Assembly: GCF_024055725.1 (NCBI RefSeq)
Contig: NZ_JAMXMX010000012.1
Location: 62,001-126,000 of the forward strand
Direction of reading: 5' to 3'
Length of the DNA: 64,000 nt
Source of the DNA: Actinoallomurus spadix
Lineage (GTDB): Bacteria > Actinomycetota > Actinomycetes > Streptosporangiales > Streptosporangiaceae
In this document: piece by piece, positions 1,762 through 64,000 of the stretch
Position numbering within the stretch: position 1 is the stretch's first letter
Layout of the letters: each line of letters begins with the position of its first letter
Position numbers and translations under genes: made by a program
The notes under the pieces: model-generated
Seen by the model: the letters and a program-made list of their open reading frames with translations, nothing else
Told to the model about the DNA's origin: nothing
Databases searched by the model: none

Positions 1762-2906
1762 CGGACTCCTGTCGGCAGGGGAAGGCGGGCGGTGACGCGG
1801 AAGCCGCCCTCGGGTCGTGGTCCGGCGGTGAGGTCGCCGTGCAGCAGGGCGGCGCGTTCGCGCATGCCGACCAGGCCGTAGCCGGTGCCGGGGGTGAGCC
1901 CGTGGCCGCGGCCGTCGTCGACGACCTCGATCGAGATCTCTTCGTCCCGGTGGTCGATCGAGACGGTGCAGGAGCGGGCGCCGGCGTGGCGTACCACGTT
2001 CGTGACGGCCTCCTGGATGATCCGGTACGCCGACAGGTCGACCTCCGGGGGCAGCGGGCGCCGTTCACCTCGGTGGTGGACGTCGACGCGGACCCCGGCC
2101 GCCGTGGTCGCCTCGGCGAGCCGCTCGACGTCCGCCAGGCCGGGCATCTCGTCGAGCGGCGCGGGCTCGGCTCCCTTCTCCAGCTCGGCCTGCCGGAGGG
2201 CGCCGAGCATCCGGCGCAGGCCGGACAGCGTCTCCCGGCTGGCGGTCTCGACCTCGCCCAGCGCCTCGCGCGCCCGGGCCGGCTGTGTGTCGATCACTCG
2301 CTTGGCCGCGCCCGCCTGCAGCGCCACGATGCCGATCGTGTGCGCGACCATGTCGTGCAGTTCGCGCGCGATCCGGAGCCGCTCGGCGGTGACGGCGTCG
2401 GCCACCGCGCGCGTGCGCAGCGCCTCCCCGTGCTCGCGGCGCTCGCGGATCAGCCTGCCGACCATGTACGTCGTGGCGAGCGCCAGCAGCGCCATCTCGG
2501 CGTTGACGCCCACGTCCGTTCCGTCGGAGAAGACCACGACGGTCCCGGACTGCACGACGAGGCACAGGAGGACGGCGACGGTCGAGACCCGGGTGGTCCG
2601 GGTCGCGACGACGAACGCCAGAGCCAGATCCACCGCCAGGAAGGGGAGGAACGGGGCGCGGCCGGTCCCGTGCCGGGGGCCCGCCAGCACGACCACGGCG
2701 ACGCAGCCGAGGAGCATCATGGGCAGCGCGAGCAGCGGAACCCGCCGGAGCACGCCGATGAGCAGGCTCATCGACAGCATCGCCGCGACGGCCAGGACAG
2801 GGTTGTAGGGGTCGAACGGCCCCGTGCGCGGCGTACCCAGCTGCGACCAGGCCAGCGCGAGAGGGAACAGGGCGGCTCCGCCCCAGACGGCGATCGTCCT
2901 CCTCAT
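1758..2906 (-). CDS. DesK-type sensor histidine kinase (second of a tandem pair)
   Basis: A 382-residue membrane sensor kinase. Several hydrophobic segments in the first 150 residues form the sensor; the HisKA_3 dimerisation segment follows with phospho-acceptor H184 in RELHDMVAH. The C-terminal HATPase_c domain has the N box (EAVTNVVRHA) and G boxes (DDGRGHGL, GYGLVGMRER). I chose the ATG that overlaps the upstream kinase stop (ATGA); a longer open frame extends upstream but is a shadow of that kinase. The last ~93 residues are encoded by DNA identical to the same part of the upstream kinase, while the sensor halves are diverged. Confidence 0.94.
   Translation of the reverse strand: MRRTIAVWGGAALFPLALAWSQLGTPRTGPFDPYNPVLAVAAMLSMSLLIGVLRRVPLLALPMMLLGCVAVVVLAGPRHGTGRAPFLPFLAVDLALAFVVATRTTRVSTVAVLLCLVVQSGTVVVFSDGTDVGVNAEMALLALATTYMVGRLIRERREHGEALRTRAVADAVTAERLRIARELHDMVAHTIGIVALQAGAAKRVIDTQPARAREALGEVETASRETLSGLRRMLGALRQAELEKGAEPAPLDEMPGLADVERLAEATTAAGVRVDVHHRGERRPLPPEVDLSAYRIIQEAVTNVVRHAGARSCTVSIDHRDEEISIEVVDDGRGHGLTPGTGYGLVGMRERAALLHGDLTAGPRPEGGFRVTARLPLPTGVR
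1786..2063. repeat. 278-bp perfect direct repeat, copy 1
   Basis: Base-for-base identical to the second copy 1,148 bp away, with sharp ends. It encodes most of the ATPase domain of the downstream kinase. Confidence 0.97.
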
Positions 2907-4105
2907 CGCCTGACCTCCACCGGCAGGGGGAGACGGGCGGTGACGCGGAAGCCGCCCTCGGGTCGTGGTCCGGCGGTGAGGTCGCCGTGCAGCAGGGCGG
3001 CGCGTTCGCGCATGCCGACCAGGCCGTAGCCGGTGCCGGGGGTGAGCCCGTGGCCGCGGCCGTCGTCGACGACCTCGATCGAGATCTCTTCGTCCCGGTG
3101 GTCGATCGAGACGGTGCAGGAGCGGGCGCCGGCGTGGCGTACCACGTTCGTGACGGCCTCCTGGATGATCCGGTACGCCGACAGGTCGACCTCCGGGGGC
3201 AGCGGGCGCCGCTCGCCTCGCCACTGGACGTCGACGCGGACGCCGGCGGCGGTCGTCGTCGCGGCCAGCCGGTCGACGTCCGCCAGGCCGGGCATCTCAT
3301 CGAACCCAGGGGCCCCGTCCCTCAGCTCCGCCTGCCGGAGGGCGCCGAGCATCCGTCGCAGGCCGGACAGCGTCTCCCGGCTCGCCAGCTCCACCTCCCG
3401 CAGGGCGTCGCGCGCTCCGGTGGGCTGCGTGTCGATGACCCTTCGCGCCGCGCCGGCCTGCAGGGCGACGATGCCGATGCTGTGCGCGACCATGTCGTGC
3501 AGTTCGCGCGCGATGCGGAGCCGTTCTGCGGTGACCGCCTCGGCGGCGGTCCGGGCCCGCCCGGCCTCCGCGTGCTCGCGGGCCTGGTGCGCCGAGTTGC
3601 CGATCAGCCAGGCGACCAGGGCCGTCATCGCCACGGCCAGCTCCGTCGACGTGCCGATGGTCCAGGCATGGGCAAGCCGGACCGACAGGTACGCGGTGAG
3701 CGTGGCGAACACCAGACCGGCGGCGGTGAGGGACACTCCGCGTCGCCCGGTGGCCGCGATGAAGTACAGGGCGACATCGACGGACAGGAACTGCGGCACC
3801 GGAATCGCGTCGACGCTCAGCGGGACCGTCCCGAGGACGGCGCCGGCGAGCACCAGGACGAGAGCCGTGAGCGGCCGCCGGCGCAGCAGGCCGCTGCCGA
3901 CGAGGGTGAGCGCGGTGGCCAGCGCCAGCGTCGTCCGGCCGTCCCACCGGTGGAAGAGGACCCCGGGGTAGGCCGAGTTCATGCTCTCACCGGGCAGTCT
4001 CATCCGGATGAGGAACGTGAAGGCCGTGCCGGCGCACCAGGCCAGGGCTGCCCATGCGCCCGGCGGTACGCGCCTCAGCAGGGGAGAAGGGGGCACGGCG
4101 GACAT
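2903..4105 (-). CDS. DesK-type sensor histidine kinase (first of a tandem pair)
   Basis: A 400-residue paralogue of the next kinase: an N-terminal multi-pass sensor region (about residues 15-150), HisKA_3 with H203 in RELHDMVAH, and an HATPase_c domain ending LPLPVEVRR. The sensor region differs clearly from its neighbour, so the two probably sense different cues. The start is uncertain: an in-frame ATG lies 36 bases upstream (MPRKSRANTIRD extension) and neither has a strong ribosome binding site. It is the first gene of the minus-strand operon and is divergent from the ABC exporter across about 130 bp. Confidence 0.93.
   Translation of the reverse strand: MSAVPPSPLLRRVPPGAWAALAWCAGTAFTFLIRMRLPGESMNSAYPGVLFHRWDGRTTLALATALTLVGSGLLRRRPLTALVLVLAGAVLGTVPLSVDAIPVPQFLSVDVALYFIAATGRRGVSLTAAGLVFATLTAYLSVRLAHAWTIGTSTELAVAMTALVAWLIGNSAHQAREHAEAGRARTAAEAVTAERLRIARELHDMVAHSIGIVALQAGAARRVIDTQPTGARDALREVELASRETLSGLRRMLGALRQAELRDGAPGFDEMPGLADVDRLAATTTAAGVRVDVQWRGERRPLPPEVDLSAYRIIQEAVTNVVRHAGARSCTVSIDHRDEEISIEVVDDGRGHGLTPGTGYGLVGMRERAALLHGDLTAGPRPEGGFRVTARLPLPVEVRR
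2934..3211. repeat. 278-bp perfect direct repeat, copy 2
   Basis: Second copy, in the same position within the upstream kinase gene. Flanking coding sequence is only moderately similar, which points to recent gene conversion rather than a fresh duplication. Confidence 0.97.
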
Positions 4106-4238
4106 GTCCCGAATCGTATTGGCCCGAGACTTCCGGGGCATCGGACCACGGGTGTACGACCACGGTCGGCATCGGCGGCCCGCGAATGCCGACGACGGCC
4201 CGATGTGAGCCGGGCCCGGCCCGCGACACCGTTGCCTC

Positions 4239-5150
4239 GTGATCGAAGTGAGCGGACTGACGAAGCGGTACGGCGCGAAGACGGCCGTCAACGGACTGAC
4301 CTTCAGCGTGCGCCCGGGGCACGTCACCGGGTTCCTCGGCCCCAACGGCGCGGGCAAGAGCACCACCCTGCGGATGATCCTCGGGCTCAACAGGCCCACC
4401 GGCGGCACCGCCACCGTCGCCGGCCGTCCGTTCCGTGACCGCCCGCGCGGACTCCGCCACGTCGGCGCGCTGCTCGACGCCCAGGACGTGCACGGCGGCC
4501 GCACCGCGTACGCGCACCTGTCCGCCCTGGCCCGCGCCAACCGGATCCCGCGCCGCCGGGTGGACGAGGTCCTGGGCGAGGTCGGGCTGACGGAGGCGGC
4601 GCGCCGCCGCGTCGGCGGCTTCTCCCTCGGCATGCGGCAGCGGCTCGGCATCGCGACCGCCCTGCTCGGCGACCCGCCCGTCCTGGTGTTCGACGAGCCG
4701 ATCAACGGCCTCGACCCGGAGGGCGTGCGATGGGTCCGCGGCCTGTTCCGCCGCCTGGCCGCGGAAGGCCGGACCGTGTTCGTCTCCAGCCACCTCATGA
4801 GCGAGATGGAGCACACCGCCGACCATCTCATCGTCATCGGCCGGGGCGAACTGATCGCCGACGAGAGCCTGGCCGAGTTCGCCGCTCGCGGCACACCGCA
4901 GAGCGTGACCGTGCGCACGCCCGACGCCTCAGAGCTGACGCCGATCCTGACCGCCGAGGGCGGATCCGTACGACCGGACGGCGACCAGGCGCTCACGGTC
5001 ACCGGCCTGAGCGCCGCCCGCATCGGCGAACTCGCCTTCCAGCACCGCGTGCTGCTCCACGAGCTCGCCCCCCGTACCGCCTCGCTGGAGGAGGCGTTCA
5101 TGGAACTCACCGCCGACAGCGTCGAATACCTCGCCGGAGACGCCCGATGA
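4239..5150 (+). CDS. ABC transporter ATP-binding protein (exporter type)
   Basis: A 303-residue ATPase starting at a GTG (MIEVSGLTKRYG). It has Walker A GPNGAGKS near residue 35, an ABC signature represented by SLGMRQR, Walker B VLVFDEP, and an H-loop in VSSHLM. The ~85-residue C-terminal extension is typical of drug- or bacitracin-type exporters (BcrA/DrrA group). It overlaps the permease gene by four bases and is divergent from the two-component operon, a layout common for kinase-controlled efflux pumps. Confidence 0.94.
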   Translation: MIEVSGLTKRYGAKTAVNGLTFSVRPGHVTGFLGPNGAGKSTTLRMILGLNRPTGGTATVAGRPFRDRPRGLRHVGALLDAQDVHGGRTAYAHLSALARANRIPRRRVDEVLGEVGLTEAARRRVGGFSLGMRQRLGIATALLGDPPVLVFDEPINGLDPEGVRWVRGLFRRLAAEGRTVFVSSHLMSEMEHTADHLIVIGRGELIADESLAEFAARGTPQSVTVRTPDASELTPILTAEGGSVRPDGDQALTVTGLSAARIGELAFQHRVLLHELAPRTASLEEAFMELTADSVEYLAGDAR

Positions 5151-5998
5151 CCGCACCGACCACCACCGTCCGCCCCGCCGTCACCGAGCCGTCCGCCCGG
5201 TTCCGCGACCTCCTCGCCGCCGAGTGGGCCAAGCTCTGGTCGCTCCGCTCGACCCACTGGACCCTGCTCCTCAGCGGGCTGGTCATCATCGGCATCAACA
5301 TCAACGCGGCCGTCGCCGACCACCACAACTGGCCGCACTACGACGCCGGGATCCGCGCCATCTTCGTCCCAATTTGGGCGATGCGGGACGCGTTCACGCT
5401 GATCAGCGGCATGATCATCATGCTCGTCGCCGGCAGCATCGGCGCCATCACCATCACCGGTGAGTACGGCACGGGACTGATACGTACCACCTTCGCGGCC
5501 GTTCCCGCCCGCCGCTCACTGGTGGCCGCCAAACTGATCGACGTCACGGTCGTCATGCTCGGCTACGGGACGGTCGTCGCCGGTGTCTCCTTCTGGGCCA
5601 CCCAGGCCATCCTGTCGGGCCACCACGTCGGCATGTCGATCGGCTACCCGGGAGCGTTCCAGGCGGTGGCTGCGTCCGCGCTGCTCGCACCGGTCTGCGC
5701 GCTCCTCGGCATGGGCCTCGGCGCGATCATCCGGCACGGCGCGGCGACCATGGCGATCACCACGGCGGTGCTTCTGCTGCTGCCCCCGTGCTTCACCGAC
5801 CACTACCGCTGGACGGCCGACATCAAGCACGCGATGCCCTCCACCGCCTGGCAGCGGCTGGTCGACGTCGGCTACGGCCGCTTCGGCTTCACCGTGCGCC
5901 ACCCCACGACGACCACCGAGGCGTGGATCACCCTCGCGATCTGGGCGGTCGCCGCGGCGGCCGTCGCCGTGACCGTCGTCGACCGCCGCGACGTGTGA
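5147..5998 (+). CDS. ABC-2 type transporter permease
   Basis: A 283-residue integral membrane protein with about six hydrophobic segments. The N-terminal AEWAKLWSLRSTHWTLL stretch, before the first membrane segment, is typical of BcrB-like ABC-2 permeases. The central TGEYGTGLIRTT segment is also characteristic of this group. Its ATG overlaps the ATPase stop (ATGA). The pair should form an exporter; the substrate is unknown, and membrane-active antibiotics or lipids would fit the DesK-type sensors next door. Confidence 0.92.
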   Translation: MTAPTTTVRPAVTEPSARFRDLLAAEWAKLWSLRSTHWTLLLSGLVIIGININAAVADHHNWPHYDAGIRAIFVPIWAMRDAFTLISGMIIMLVAGSIGAITITGEYGTGLIRTTFAAVPARRSLVAAKLIDVTVVMLGYGTVVAGVSFWATQAILSGHHVGMSIGYPGAFQAVAASALLAPVCALLGMGLGAIIRHGAATMAITTAVLLLLPPCFTDHYRWTADIKHAMPSTAWQRLVDVGYGRFGFTVRHPTTTTEAWITLAIWAVAAAAVAVTVVDRRDV

Positions 5999-59309: not shown

Positions 59310-60728
59310 ATGACCTCCCGGATGATCAACGCCGCGAGCCTCGCCCGGTTGCTCGGCGGCACCCCGGAGGGCAGGCCCCTGTACGCGGTGCTGGCCCGGG
59401 ACCTGCGGAGCCTCGTCCTCGACGGCCGTCTTCCCCTGCGCACGCGGCTGCCCGCCGAACGCGACCTCGCGGCCGCGCTGGGGGTGAGCCGGACCACGGT
59501 GACCGCCGCGTACGACGCCCTGCGCGCCGAGGGGTACGTCGAGAGCCGCCAGGGAGCGGGCAGCTGGACCGCGCTGCCGGCCGGCAGCCCGAAGGCGGCC
59601 CGTCACGAGCCCGCAGGGGACCGCTCGCTCATCGACCTGGCCCGCGTCGCGCCGCCCGCCCCCCGGGGCTTCGAGGACGACGTCGCCGCCGCCGTGGCCG
59701 ACCTCCCGGCGTACGCCTGCGGGCCCGGCTACGAGCCGCTCGGTCTGTGGGCGCTGCGCGAGGCCGTCGCCGCGCGCTACGGCGCGCGCGGTGTGCCGAC
59801 GCTGCCCGAGCAGATTCTCATCACGACCGGGGCGCAGCACGGGCTGTGGCTGGTCCTCCAGGCGCTCGTCCATCCGGGCGATCCCGTGCTCGTCGAGTCG
59901 CCGACGTACCCGCACGCCCTCGACGCGCTGCGCCGGGCGGGAGCCCGCCTGGTGCCCGCGGGGGTCAACGCCGGCTGGGACGCCGAACTCATCACGAGCG
60001 GCCTGCGCCAGTCCGCCGCCCGCCTCGCGTACCTCATCCCGGACTTCCAGAATCCCACCGGCCTGCTGATGGACGACGAGGTGCGCGCCGCGCTGGTCGC
60101 CGCCGCGCGCGCCACCGGCACGTACGTCATCGGCGACGAGACCTTCACCGAACTCGCCGTGGACGACGTCACCCGGCCGCGTCCCCTCGCCGCCCACGAC
60201 ACCGACGGACGTGTGATCACCATCGGGTCGGCGTCGAAGGTGTTGTGGGGCGGTCTGCGCATCGGCTGGATCCGGGGCACGCAGGCGCTCGTCCGGAGGC
60301 TGGCCGAGGTCCGCGAGGCGGTCGACCTGGCCAGCCCGGTGTTCGAGCAGCTCATCGTGGCCCGGCTGCTCGGCCGCATGGGCGCGGTGACCGGCGAGCG
60401 GCGCGCGATGCTGCGAGAGCGCCGCGCGGTCCTCGTCGAGGCCCTGCGCCGCGAGTGCCCCGGCTGGACGTTCACCCTCCCGCCCGGGGGCCTGTCGCTG
60501 TGGGTCCGGCTGCAGGGGACGTCGAGCACCGCGCTCGCGGCCACCGCGGCCCGGTACGGCCTGCACGTCGTGCCCGGCACGGCCTTCGGCGTGGACGGTG
60601 TCCTGGACGACCACCTCCGCGTGCCCTACGTGCTCCCGCCGGAGGTGCTGCGCGACGCCGTCTCCCGGCTCGCCGCGGCCTCCCGGGAGGCCGCCCGCGC
60701 GCCGCGGCCCCCGATGGCCTTCGTCTAA
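59310..60728 (+). CDS. MocR-family regulator (YczR-like)
   Basis: A 472-residue GntR-HTH/aminotransferase fusion. HTH: GRLPLRTRLPAERDLAAALGVSRTTVTAAYDALRAEGY (about residues 38-75). Aminotransferase-like part has ITTGAQHGL, DFQNPTG and PLP Lys310 in GSASKVLWGGLRIG. It should bind PLP and control the divergent yczE-like gene. Start ATG adjoins the repeat array. The TAA overlaps the convergent hydrolase stop. Confidence 0.93.
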   Translation: MTSRMINAASLARLLGGTPEGRPLYAVLARDLRSLVLDGRLPLRTRLPAERDLAAALGVSRTTVTAAYDALRAEGYVESRQGAGSWTALPAGSPKAARHEPAGDRSLIDLARVAPPAPRGFEDDVAAAVADLPAYACGPGYEPLGLWALREAVAARYGARGVPTLPEQILITTGAQHGLWLVLQALVHPGDPVLVESPTYPHALDALRRAGARLVPAGVNAGWDAELITSGLRQSAARLAYLIPDFQNPTGLLMDDEVRAALVAAARATGTYVIGDETFTELAVDDVTRPRPLAAHDTDGRVITIGSASKVLWGGLRIGWIRGTQALVRRLAEVREAVDLASPVFEQLIVARLLGRMGAVTGERRAMLRERRAVLVEALRRECPGWTFTLPPGGLSLWVRLQGTSSTALAATAARYGLHVVPGTAFGVDGVLDDHLRVPYVLPPEVLRDAVSRLAAASREAARAPRPPMAFV

Positions 60729-61640: not shown

Positions 61641-62450
61641 TCAGTCCTTGATCCGCTCGGCCCCCGTGTAGACGTTCATCGACCGCCCGCGCAGGAAGCC
61701 GACGAGGGTCATGCCGGCCTCCTCGGCGAGGTCGGCCGCGAGCGAGGACGGCGCGGACACCGCCGCCAGCGCCGGGATGCCCGCGAGCATCGCCTTCTGG
61801 GTCAGCTCGAACGACGCGCGGCCGCTGACCAGCAGCACGTGCCCGGTGAGCGGGAGCCGCCCGTCCTTCAGCGCCCAGCCGATCACCTTGTCGACCGCGT
61901 TGTGCCGTCCGACGTCCTCGCGGAGCGTGACCAGCGCGCCGCCCGCGTCGAAGAGCCCGGCCGCGTGCAGCCCGCCGGTCCGCTCGAAGACCCGCTGCGC
62001 CTCCCGCAGCGTGTCCGGCAGGGCGGCCAGGACCTCCGGGTCGAGGACGGTCGCGTCCGACCGGATGTCATGGCGTGCCCGCTGCCGGAGCGCGTCGATG
62101 CTCGTCTTCCCGCACACGCCGCAGGCGCTCGTCGTGTAGAAGGAACGCTCCACCGAGACCTCCGGCGGGTCCACGCCCGCGGCGAGGGCGACGTCGACGA
62201 CGTTGAACGTGTCGGTGTCGGCGCAGTAGCGCATCGCGGCGACGTCCTCCGGTGCCCGGATGACGCCCTCGGCGTACAGGAATCCGGTCACCAGATCGAA
62301 GTCGTTCCCGGGCGTCCGCATGGTGACCGACAGCGGGCGCCCGTCCAGGCGGATCTCGAGGGGCTCCTCGACGACGAGCGTGTCCGGCCTCACCCGGCGT
62401 CCCCGTTCGTCGATGTGCGCGATCCGCCGTCGTACGGTCACTCGGCCCAT
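61641..62450 (-). CDS. fdhD: FdhD, formate dehydrogenase sulfurtransferase
   Basis: A 269-residue FdhD. The CxxC sulfur-transfer motif is [23 protein letters not shown] and [18 protein letters not shown] are family hallmarks. It delivers sulfur to the molybdenum cofactor of formate dehydrogenase. It is divergent from the formate dehydrogenase gene, so the partner is adjacent. The start is MGRVTVRRR; a 28-codon extension upstream is unlikely. Confidence 0.97.
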
Positions 62451-62603: not shown

Positions 62604-64000
62604 GTGGGCATCGATTCCTGGCCGGTGATCCGGCAGCTCACGGGCACCGACCCGCTCGGGCGCGGCCGGGCCGCCCGGACCTCGCGCACGGACGCCCTGC
62701 GGGCGCGGACCGAGAGCGCCGACCGGGTGGTCGATTCCGTCTGCCCCTACTGCGCGGTCGGCTGCGGGCAGAAGGTCTACGTCTCAGGCGAGAAGGTCGT
62801 CCAGATCGAGGGCGACCCGAACTCCCCGATCTCCCGGGGCAGGCTCTGCCCCAAGGGCTCCGCCAGCAAGCAGCTCGTCACCTCGCCGACCCGGCAGACG
62901 AGGGTCCTGTACCGCCGGCCGTACGCCACCGAGTGGGAGCCGCTCGACCTCGACGAGGCGATGGACATGATCGCCGACCGGGTTCTCGCGGCCCGCCGCG
63001 AGGGCTGGCAGGACACCTTCGAGGACAAGCCGGTGCGCCGCACGATGGGCTTCGCGAGCCTCGGCGGCGCCACCCTCGACAACGAGGAGAACTACCTCAT
63101 CAAGAAGCTCTGGACCGCCCTCGGCGCGATCCAGATCGAGAACCAGGCCCGTATTTGACACTCCGCCACCGTCCCCGGTCTGGGGACCAGTTTCGGGCGC
63201 GGCGGCGCGACGACGTTCCAGCAGGACCTCGCGAACTCCGACTGCATCGTCATCCAGGGCTCGAACATGGCCGAGTGCCATCCGGTCGGGTTCCAGTGGG
63301 TGATGGAGGCGAAGGCGCGCGGGGCGCGGATCTTCCACATCGACCCGCGCTTCACCCGTACGAGCGCGATGGCACACCGGCACCTGCCGATCCGTGCGGG
63401 CAGTGACATCGTCCTGCTCGGCGCGCTGATCAACCATGTGCTGAGCGGCGGGCACGACTTCCGTGAGTACGTCCTGCGCTACACCAACGCCTCGGTCATC
63501 CTGAGCGAGGACTTCCAGGACACCGAGGACCTCGACGGGCTGTTCTCCGGCTACGACGCCGAGAGCTCGTCGTACGACCCGGAGACCTGGGCGTACGCCG
63601 GAGGAGAGCAGGAGGCGCCGGCCGCCGGGGCGCGCGACGAGCAGCAGAAGGGCGACGACCCGGACAAGGGCACCGGCCGGCCGCCGGGCCCGATCCGGCA
63701 GGAGCACGGGCCGGGCGCGACGTACGAGGCCACCTCGTCGCAGACCGGCCACGCCGACGAGCGCGACGAGACGCTGCGGCACCCGCGCTGCGTCTACCAG
63801 GTGCTGAAGCGGCACTTCGCGCGCTACACCCCGGAGCTGGTCGAGCAGGTCTGCGGCATCGCGCCGGAGGACTTCGCCGAGCTCGCCGACGCGGTCGTGG
63901 CGAACTCCGGGCGCGACCGCACCACCGCGTGGGTCTACAGCGTGGGCTGGACGCAGCACACCGTCGGCGCGCAGTACATCCGCACCGCGTCGATCCTGCA
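62604..64000 (+). CDS. fdhA: formate dehydrogenase alpha subunit, selenocysteine-containing (partial at 3' end)
   Basis: The catalytic molybdopterin subunit. The N terminus ([14 protein letters not shown]) has no Tat signal; a 4Fe-4S site follows (CPYCAVGC, then CPKGS). At codon 185 an in-frame TGA at 63156-63158 sits in NQARI-U-HSATV, the exact place of the active-site Sec in FdnG-type enzymes. After it the frame continues with strong homology ([37 protein letters not shown]) to the window edge. The GTG start is supported by GGAG upstream and homology. It oxidises formate to CO2. Read as a stop, the TGA would truncate it; the hairpin after it argues against this. Confidence 0.93.
63171..63187 (+). 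promoter_or_regulatory. SECIS-like hairpin
   Basis: GTCCCC-GGTCT-GGGGAC: a six-bp stem with a GGTCT loop. The loop starts 18 bases after the TGA, the same spacing as in E. coli fdhF, whose apical loop also carries GGUCU for SelB. Confidence 0.85.

Follow-up and report, generated by a model that had tools for sequence, protein, structure and literature searches.

The formate dehydrogenase N (FDH-N) of Escherichia coli is a periplasmic enzyme with a twin-arginine export signal, and its third subunit is a cytochrome b. In the available part of a survey of bacterial selenoprotein families, the formate dehydrogenase alpha subunit heads the table (PMC5029168). Among actinomycetes, the accessible text on Actinomycetospora chiangmaiensis describes three deduced selenocysteine (Sec) formate dehydrogenases (PMC7176365). 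The same text gives FDH1 a subunit of 1,078 aa, which we read as FdhA1, together with FdhB and FdhC, and lists SelA and SelB under FDH1; it also reports that formate removal by Actinomycetospora was selenite dependent and that the Sec-FDH, SelA, SelB, and SelD proteins were found at low abundance. Streptomyces incarnatus, likewise an actinomycete but of another genus, carries a Sec FDH-O gene in which the UGA is followed by a SECIS element, with a selABCD cluster in the vicinity; its announcement comes without a comparative test of the hairpin (PMC4498112).

We examined a formate dehydrogenase alpha gene at the end of a 64,000-nt stretch of Actinoallomurus spadix DNA (here called the window), which corresponds to bases 62001 to 126000 of contig C3 in a genome of 8.0 Mb and 71 contigs. 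The gene starts with GTG at 62604 and runs past the end of the window to a natural stop, for a full length of 1,077 aa (positions 2605 to 5838 of locus L009, whose position p is window position 59999 + p). Its frame contains a single in-frame stop, a TGA in the context NQARI-U-HSATV, after which it stays open for the 280 codons up to the window end. An earlier note on this DNA had described this TGA at the Sec/Cys position and had counted more than 270 open codons behind it. The observation is confirmed, and the Sec interpretation attached to it is supported by the results below. Coordinates of all features are given in Table 1.

Table 1. Features of the formate dehydrogenase locus and of the Sec decoding genes on contig C3 (window positions unless prefixed by C3 or L009)
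Feature	Position	Strand	Remarks
FdhD, sulfurtransferase for formate dehydrogenase	61641..62450	-	NF001943, 372 bits (cut-off 269); PF02634
Formate dehydrogenase alpha subunit (FdnG-like, predicted Sec-containing)	62604..64000	+	First 465 of 1,077 codons; continues past the window to C3:127837
ATT codon, candidate 5' extension of the Sec signal	63153..63155	+	Directly 5' of the Sec TGA
Sec codon (TGA, codon 185)	63156..63158	+	Aligned with X (Sec) of E. coli FDH-N, 1kqf
Putative SECIS hairpin	63171..63187	+	Stem 63171-63176 / 63182-63187 (6 bp); loop GGTCT, 63177-63181
4Fe-4S protein, 278 aa	Downstream of the alpha gene, outside the window		Best match FDH-beta, 185 bits, below cut-off 335
NrfD-family membrane protein, 302 aa	Downstream, outside the window		Pfam PF03916
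selD	L009 9361-10371	-	388 bits, above curated cut-off
tRNA-Sec, TCA anticodon	C3:133592-133683		Rfam 76 bits, cut-off 47; anticodon by ARAGORN
selA	Matched C3:149033-150250		420 bits, above curated cut-off
selB	Matched C3:150322-152043		Whole protein 292 bits, above curated cut-off; SelB winged-helix domain

The protein matched the NCBIfam model NF041513 (formate_DH_Act) with 1,967 bits (cut-off, 1,400) over residues 3 to 1070 of 1,077, and TIGR01553 (FDH-N alpha) with 932 bits (cut-off, 814). The Pfam domains PF04879, PF00384, and PF01568 (Fe4S4, molybdopterin, and dinucleotide binding) were all present. The genome holds a second UGA-containing alpha gene on the minus strand (C2:7913-11101, locus L026), which is 68% identical to the first and scored 1,944 bits against NF041513, again above the cut-off of 1,400. 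The 45 bases that follow the UGA are identical in the two copies, and the codon before it is ATC, not ATT, in the second. No protein-level difference between the window gene and the NF041513 family was detected. The name of the model suggests a family of Actinobacteria. Because the score lies far above the NF041513 cut-off and selenium-dependent formate dehydrogenases are documented in Actinomycetospora, the gene is a member of an already known kind.

Compared to E. coli FDH-N (FdnG, 1kqf), the protein is homologous over most of the chain, with the Sec at the same aligned place. The two differ at the N terminus, where inspection of residues 1 to 44 showed no twin-arginine (RR) pair in our protein, and in the third subunit, which here belongs to the NrfD family. 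Given the lack of an RR pair, a cytoplasmic orientation is probable for this enzyme, in contrast to E. coli FDH-N, and we have not filed it as a periplasmic FDH-N. The N-terminal 4Fe-4S cysteines C47, C50, C54, and C82 were invariant across 16 aligned sequences, as were position 185 (with U counted as C) and H186. A larger alignment drew 111 rows from this and related genomes; both of our own copies are among them, and at least one gene is represented twice (by L028 and L086). The codon at the Sec position was TGA in 84 of these rows, TAG in 17, and a Cys codon in 10. An identical TGA was found in all seven other genomes of the genus that were searched (G001 to G007), and Actinoallomurus soli WRP6H-15 also carries the alpha gene.

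Bacterial SECIS elements are stem-loops that lie shortly 3' of the Sec codon and have a G at loop position 1 or 2. The hairpin behind our TGA has this arrangement, with a 12-base spacer (63159 to 63170) before the stem and a loop that reads GGTCT, as the earlier note had stated; this loop begins after 18 nt. That note had also proposed to fold bases 63150 to 63200. The fold of this 51-nt segment was no more stable than those of shuffled sequences (z, −0.01; 96 of 200 shuffles equal or better), a test that the GC-rich background weakens, and thus a single GC-rich sequence is by itself no proof of a hairpin. Support came instead from comparison. All six stem pairs were formed in each of the 71 distinct Sec rows, where compensatory substitutions were seen, and the complete stem was present in none of the 10 distinct Cys rows. 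Counting the U of UGA as position 1, the pair 18-30 occurred as C-G, U-A, G-C, U-G, and G-U. Both positions are third bases of codons (for Val and Gly, respectively), and these two columns had the highest mutual information (1.11 bits; next pair, 0.36) over a 105-nt stretch of 97 distinct rows. The loop read GGTCT in 62 of the 71 distinct Sec rows, AGTCT in 7, and AGTTT in 2. A lower stem or a longer SECIS was not found with RNAalifold and mutual information. The comparison across rows thus shows that the hairpin is real, and we regard it as a putative SelB site.

The earlier note had expected a complete Sec system outside the window and had taken an absence of all sel genes as the outcome that would count against its reading. 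A search of the genome recovered all four genes, selA, selB, selD, and the tRNA-Sec with a UCA anticodon, on contig C3 itself, so that this outcome does not occur. The selA and selB genes overlap and together span C3:149021-152046, about 15 kb from the tRNA-Sec gene, and hence there is no single tight sel cluster. Relative to what the accessible text gives for FDH1 of A. chiangmaiensis, here selD and the tRNA-Sec gene lie near the fdh genes, and selA-selB follows about 19 kb after the last fdh gene. The divergent fdhD gene that had been noticed next door was recovered as well. Of the two subunit genes downstream, the 4Fe-4S protein is described in Table 1, and the best NCBIfam match of the NrfD-family protein reached 25 bits against a cut-off of 348.

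We then compared the distribution of the UGA gene with that of tRNA-Sec across 60 genomes, including our own. The Rfam model RF01852 alone was unspecific, with matches at an E value of 0.001 in all 60 genomes and in 14 of 14 control genomes, and 46 of the 60 exceeded Rfam's own cut-off among the matches listed. For this reason we drew our own line at 65 bits, in a gap of the scores between 67.8 and 55.2 bits. Among the matches listed, 37 of the 60 genomes had a tRNA-Sec of at least 65 bits and 30 had the UGA alpha gene. All 30 of the latter had such a tRNA-Sec, and the UGA gene occurred in none of the 23 genomes lacking one among the matches listed. Among the matches listed, there was likewise no such tRNA-Sec in any of the six genomes where the gene appeared solely in a full-length Cys form (G013, G017, G023, G030, G032, and G043). 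The description of selenoproteins as patchy in actinobacteria therefore needs qualifying, since 37 of the 60 genomes in this sample, our own included, carry a tRNA-Sec by this measure. The distance from the tRNA-Sec to the UGA gene was below 20 kb in 19 of the 30 genomes, and in the other 11 the two lay on different contigs (matches listed).

Seven genomes had a tRNA-Sec of at least 65 bits and no UGA gene among the matches listed (G008, G021, G034, G036, G039, G045, and G055). G036 is accounted for by a Sec gene of a third formate dehydrogenase class, described below, and the other six may hold other selenoproteins. Two tRNA-Sec genes, each above 65 bits, were present in G002, G006, G008, G016, and G027, and one of those in G006 (L064) adjoins a Sec gene of this third class.

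The 17 rows with TAG at the Sec position (L092, L093, L094, L098, L106, L112 to L114, L116, L117, L124, L129, L139, L141, L142, L161, and L163) come from Modestobacter, Blastococcus, Klenkia, Geodermatophilus, and one Frankiales MAG, and ATA precedes the TAG in all 17. The accessible text of a previous report attributes a tRNA-Sec(CUA), and hence UAG for Sec, to Geodermatophilaceae (PMC5330540). A formate dehydrogenase on contig C195 of G404 had TGA in its N-terminal match and TAG in its C-terminal match; this TAG may be an assembly or sequencing error.

The codon directly before the Sec codon is the part of the locus that looked new. In the window gene it is ATT, which is used for just this one of the gene's 45 Ile residues and nowhere else among the 95 Ile codons of seven fdh and sel genes checked. 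In 156 actinobacterial Sec genes of the same family, counted after rows with identical 180-nt stretches had been merged and comprising 143 distinct sequences over 78 nt, this codon ended in A or T in 153, compared with 5.2 expected from the use of codons for the same amino acid in the same genes. An earlier, smaller count had given 98 of 101 against 2.6 expected. Because homologues share ancestry, the z-scores are inflated, and the 61-sigma figure from the earlier count is not a probability. The codons were ATT (89 genes), ATA (53), GTT (11), and ATC (3), with T as the last base in 100 genes and A in 53. The three ATC exceptions, counted within the 156, are L105, L155, and the second copy of our own genome. 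Cys homologues of the family had an A/T-ending codon at this place in 0 of 13 cases.

The same pattern appeared in other actinobacterial Sec genes. In a second class of formate dehydrogenases the codon was GTT in 3 of 3 Sec genes. A third class of Sec formate dehydrogenase-like genes, with the motif SCNRT-U-HAPS, occurs in actinobacteria, and other genomes contain Cys homologues of it; here the codon was ACT in all 5 Sec genes (L064, L169, L170, L173, and L230) and ended in A or T in 0 of 23 Cys homologues (ACC in 20, ACG in 3). UGSC-motif proteins, a family other than formate dehydrogenase, had GAT in all 4 cases, and the Sec codon was UAG in two of these. (A TAG after TCG in L270, a chance motif in another frame, was excluded, and a UGSC-like match in L141, with GAC before TGA and a 32-codon span, fell below the length filter and was taken as chance.) Locus L150 holds a UGSC-motif gene with GAT TGA (minus strand, near position 704) along with a Sec formate dehydrogenase. 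Together, these other Sec genes were A/T-ending in 12 of 12 cases, and all Cys homologues in 0 of 36. What counts is that ATT, ATA, GTT, ACT, and GAT all occur, in four gene groups and with two Sec codons. It is important to note that the three formate dehydrogenase classes are mutually homologous, and thus the truly independent families number two.

Two broader forms of the pattern were rejected. It is not universal in bacteria. Among 12 non-actinobacterial loci, two of which had no motif match (L193 and L194), all eight proteobacterial UGA genes had GTC, one locus was a Cys form, and Thermomicrobium had ATA. The GTC of the E. coli record (L199) thus stands against the ATT of the window gene, and the Thermomicrobium codon hints that the pattern extends beyond Actinobacteria. 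Nor is it a general context of stop codons. Of 127 terminal stops in genes of the window-gene family, 4 were preceded by T and 32 by A; of 683 stops of control ORFs, which were chosen for their length and GC pattern rather than taken from annotated genes, 38 were preceded by T and 119 by A. Since the share of A at natural stops is not small, the U part of the pattern is the strongly specific one. No description of the pattern was found in the literature passages available, mostly from non-subscription sources (including PMC4513850 and PMC12013277).

We read these comparisons of genes to mean that the Sec signal of actinobacteria extends upstream to include this preceding codon. Specifically, we propose that in Actinobacteria the base directly 5' of a Sec UGA or UAG would have to be U or A irrespective of the encoded residue, since the final base of the codon in the P site would bias the competition between Sec-tRNA delivered by SelB and release factor; we place middling confidence in this proposal. 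The base may act on this competition, on pairing in the P site, or on local structure. A rival account, rather less probable in our estimation but live, holds that the A/T-ending codon lies outside the recoding signal and either keeps the region around the UGA unstructured or is an accident of ancestry. A C at this base would hide the UGA, lowering its predicted chance of being unpaired, in six of seven 100-nt segments from the genus, and the shared ancestry already mentioned, as well as the ATC of our own second copy, fits this account. However, four groups of Sec genes follow the pattern, with different residues at this place (Ile, Val, Thr, and Asp), and a single family switches among ATT, ATA, and GTT in genes whose codons elsewhere mostly end in C or G. 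Moreover, no partner for the base was found with RNAalifold or mutual information, so that no covariation ties it to a pairing, and a translating ribosome would presumably have melted upstream pairings by the time it reached the UGA.

With regard to the gene itself, the conserved UGA, the covariation in the hairpin, the selABCD set, and the subunit genes were directly observed, and the window gene is almost certainly a genuine selenoprotein gene, whose product is the catalytic alpha chain of a formate dehydrogenase that contains molybdenum (or tungsten) liganded by Sec185. Judging by known relatives, the ribosome would meet the UGA with the ATT-encoded Ile codon in its P site, SelB with GTP and Sec-tRNA-Sec would bind the 6-bp hairpin starting 12 nt past the UGA, and Sec would be delivered instead of termination by RF2. 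In the active enzyme, FdhD would sulfurate the cofactor, and the alpha subunit, together with the downstream 4Fe-4S and NrfD-family subunits, would pass the electrons of formate to the membrane; because both downstream subunits fall below their NCBIfam cut-offs, this electron path is one that we infer.

It is very improbable that the gene is instead a pseudogene or the product of a sequencing error, in which case the TGA would either terminate translation or be a misread TGC, and the enzyme would be dead or use Cys. The Cys codon in 10 of the 111 homologue rows would fit such an error, but the same TGA recurs throughout the genus genomes searched, the hairpin has been kept by compensatory and mostly silent changes, and the sel machinery co-occurs with the UGA gene. 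We can likewise all but dismiss a reading of the UGA as Trp or another ordinary residue, through near-cognate suppression or a reassigned code, under which the frame would look identical, given that six of the seven fdh and sel genes have no internal stop and the seventh has only this UGA, that residue 185 is a metal ligand and Cys in some homologues, that tRNA-Sec and SelB are present, and that TAG takes the place of TGA in the Frankiales MAG and in the Geodermatophilaceae, for which the accessible text reports the matching tRNA.

The locus contributes a further actinobacterial selenoprotein with good support, encoded on one contig together with its decoding genes, and gene callers that take the TGA as a stop would split the gene in two. 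If the proposed U/A rule is true, it would help to separate Sec codons from real stops and to find selenoprotein genes, since U before a real stop is uncommon in Actinobacteria. If the base is functional, the rule would add a new, testable element to the ways in which bacteria distinguish a Sec stop from a true one.
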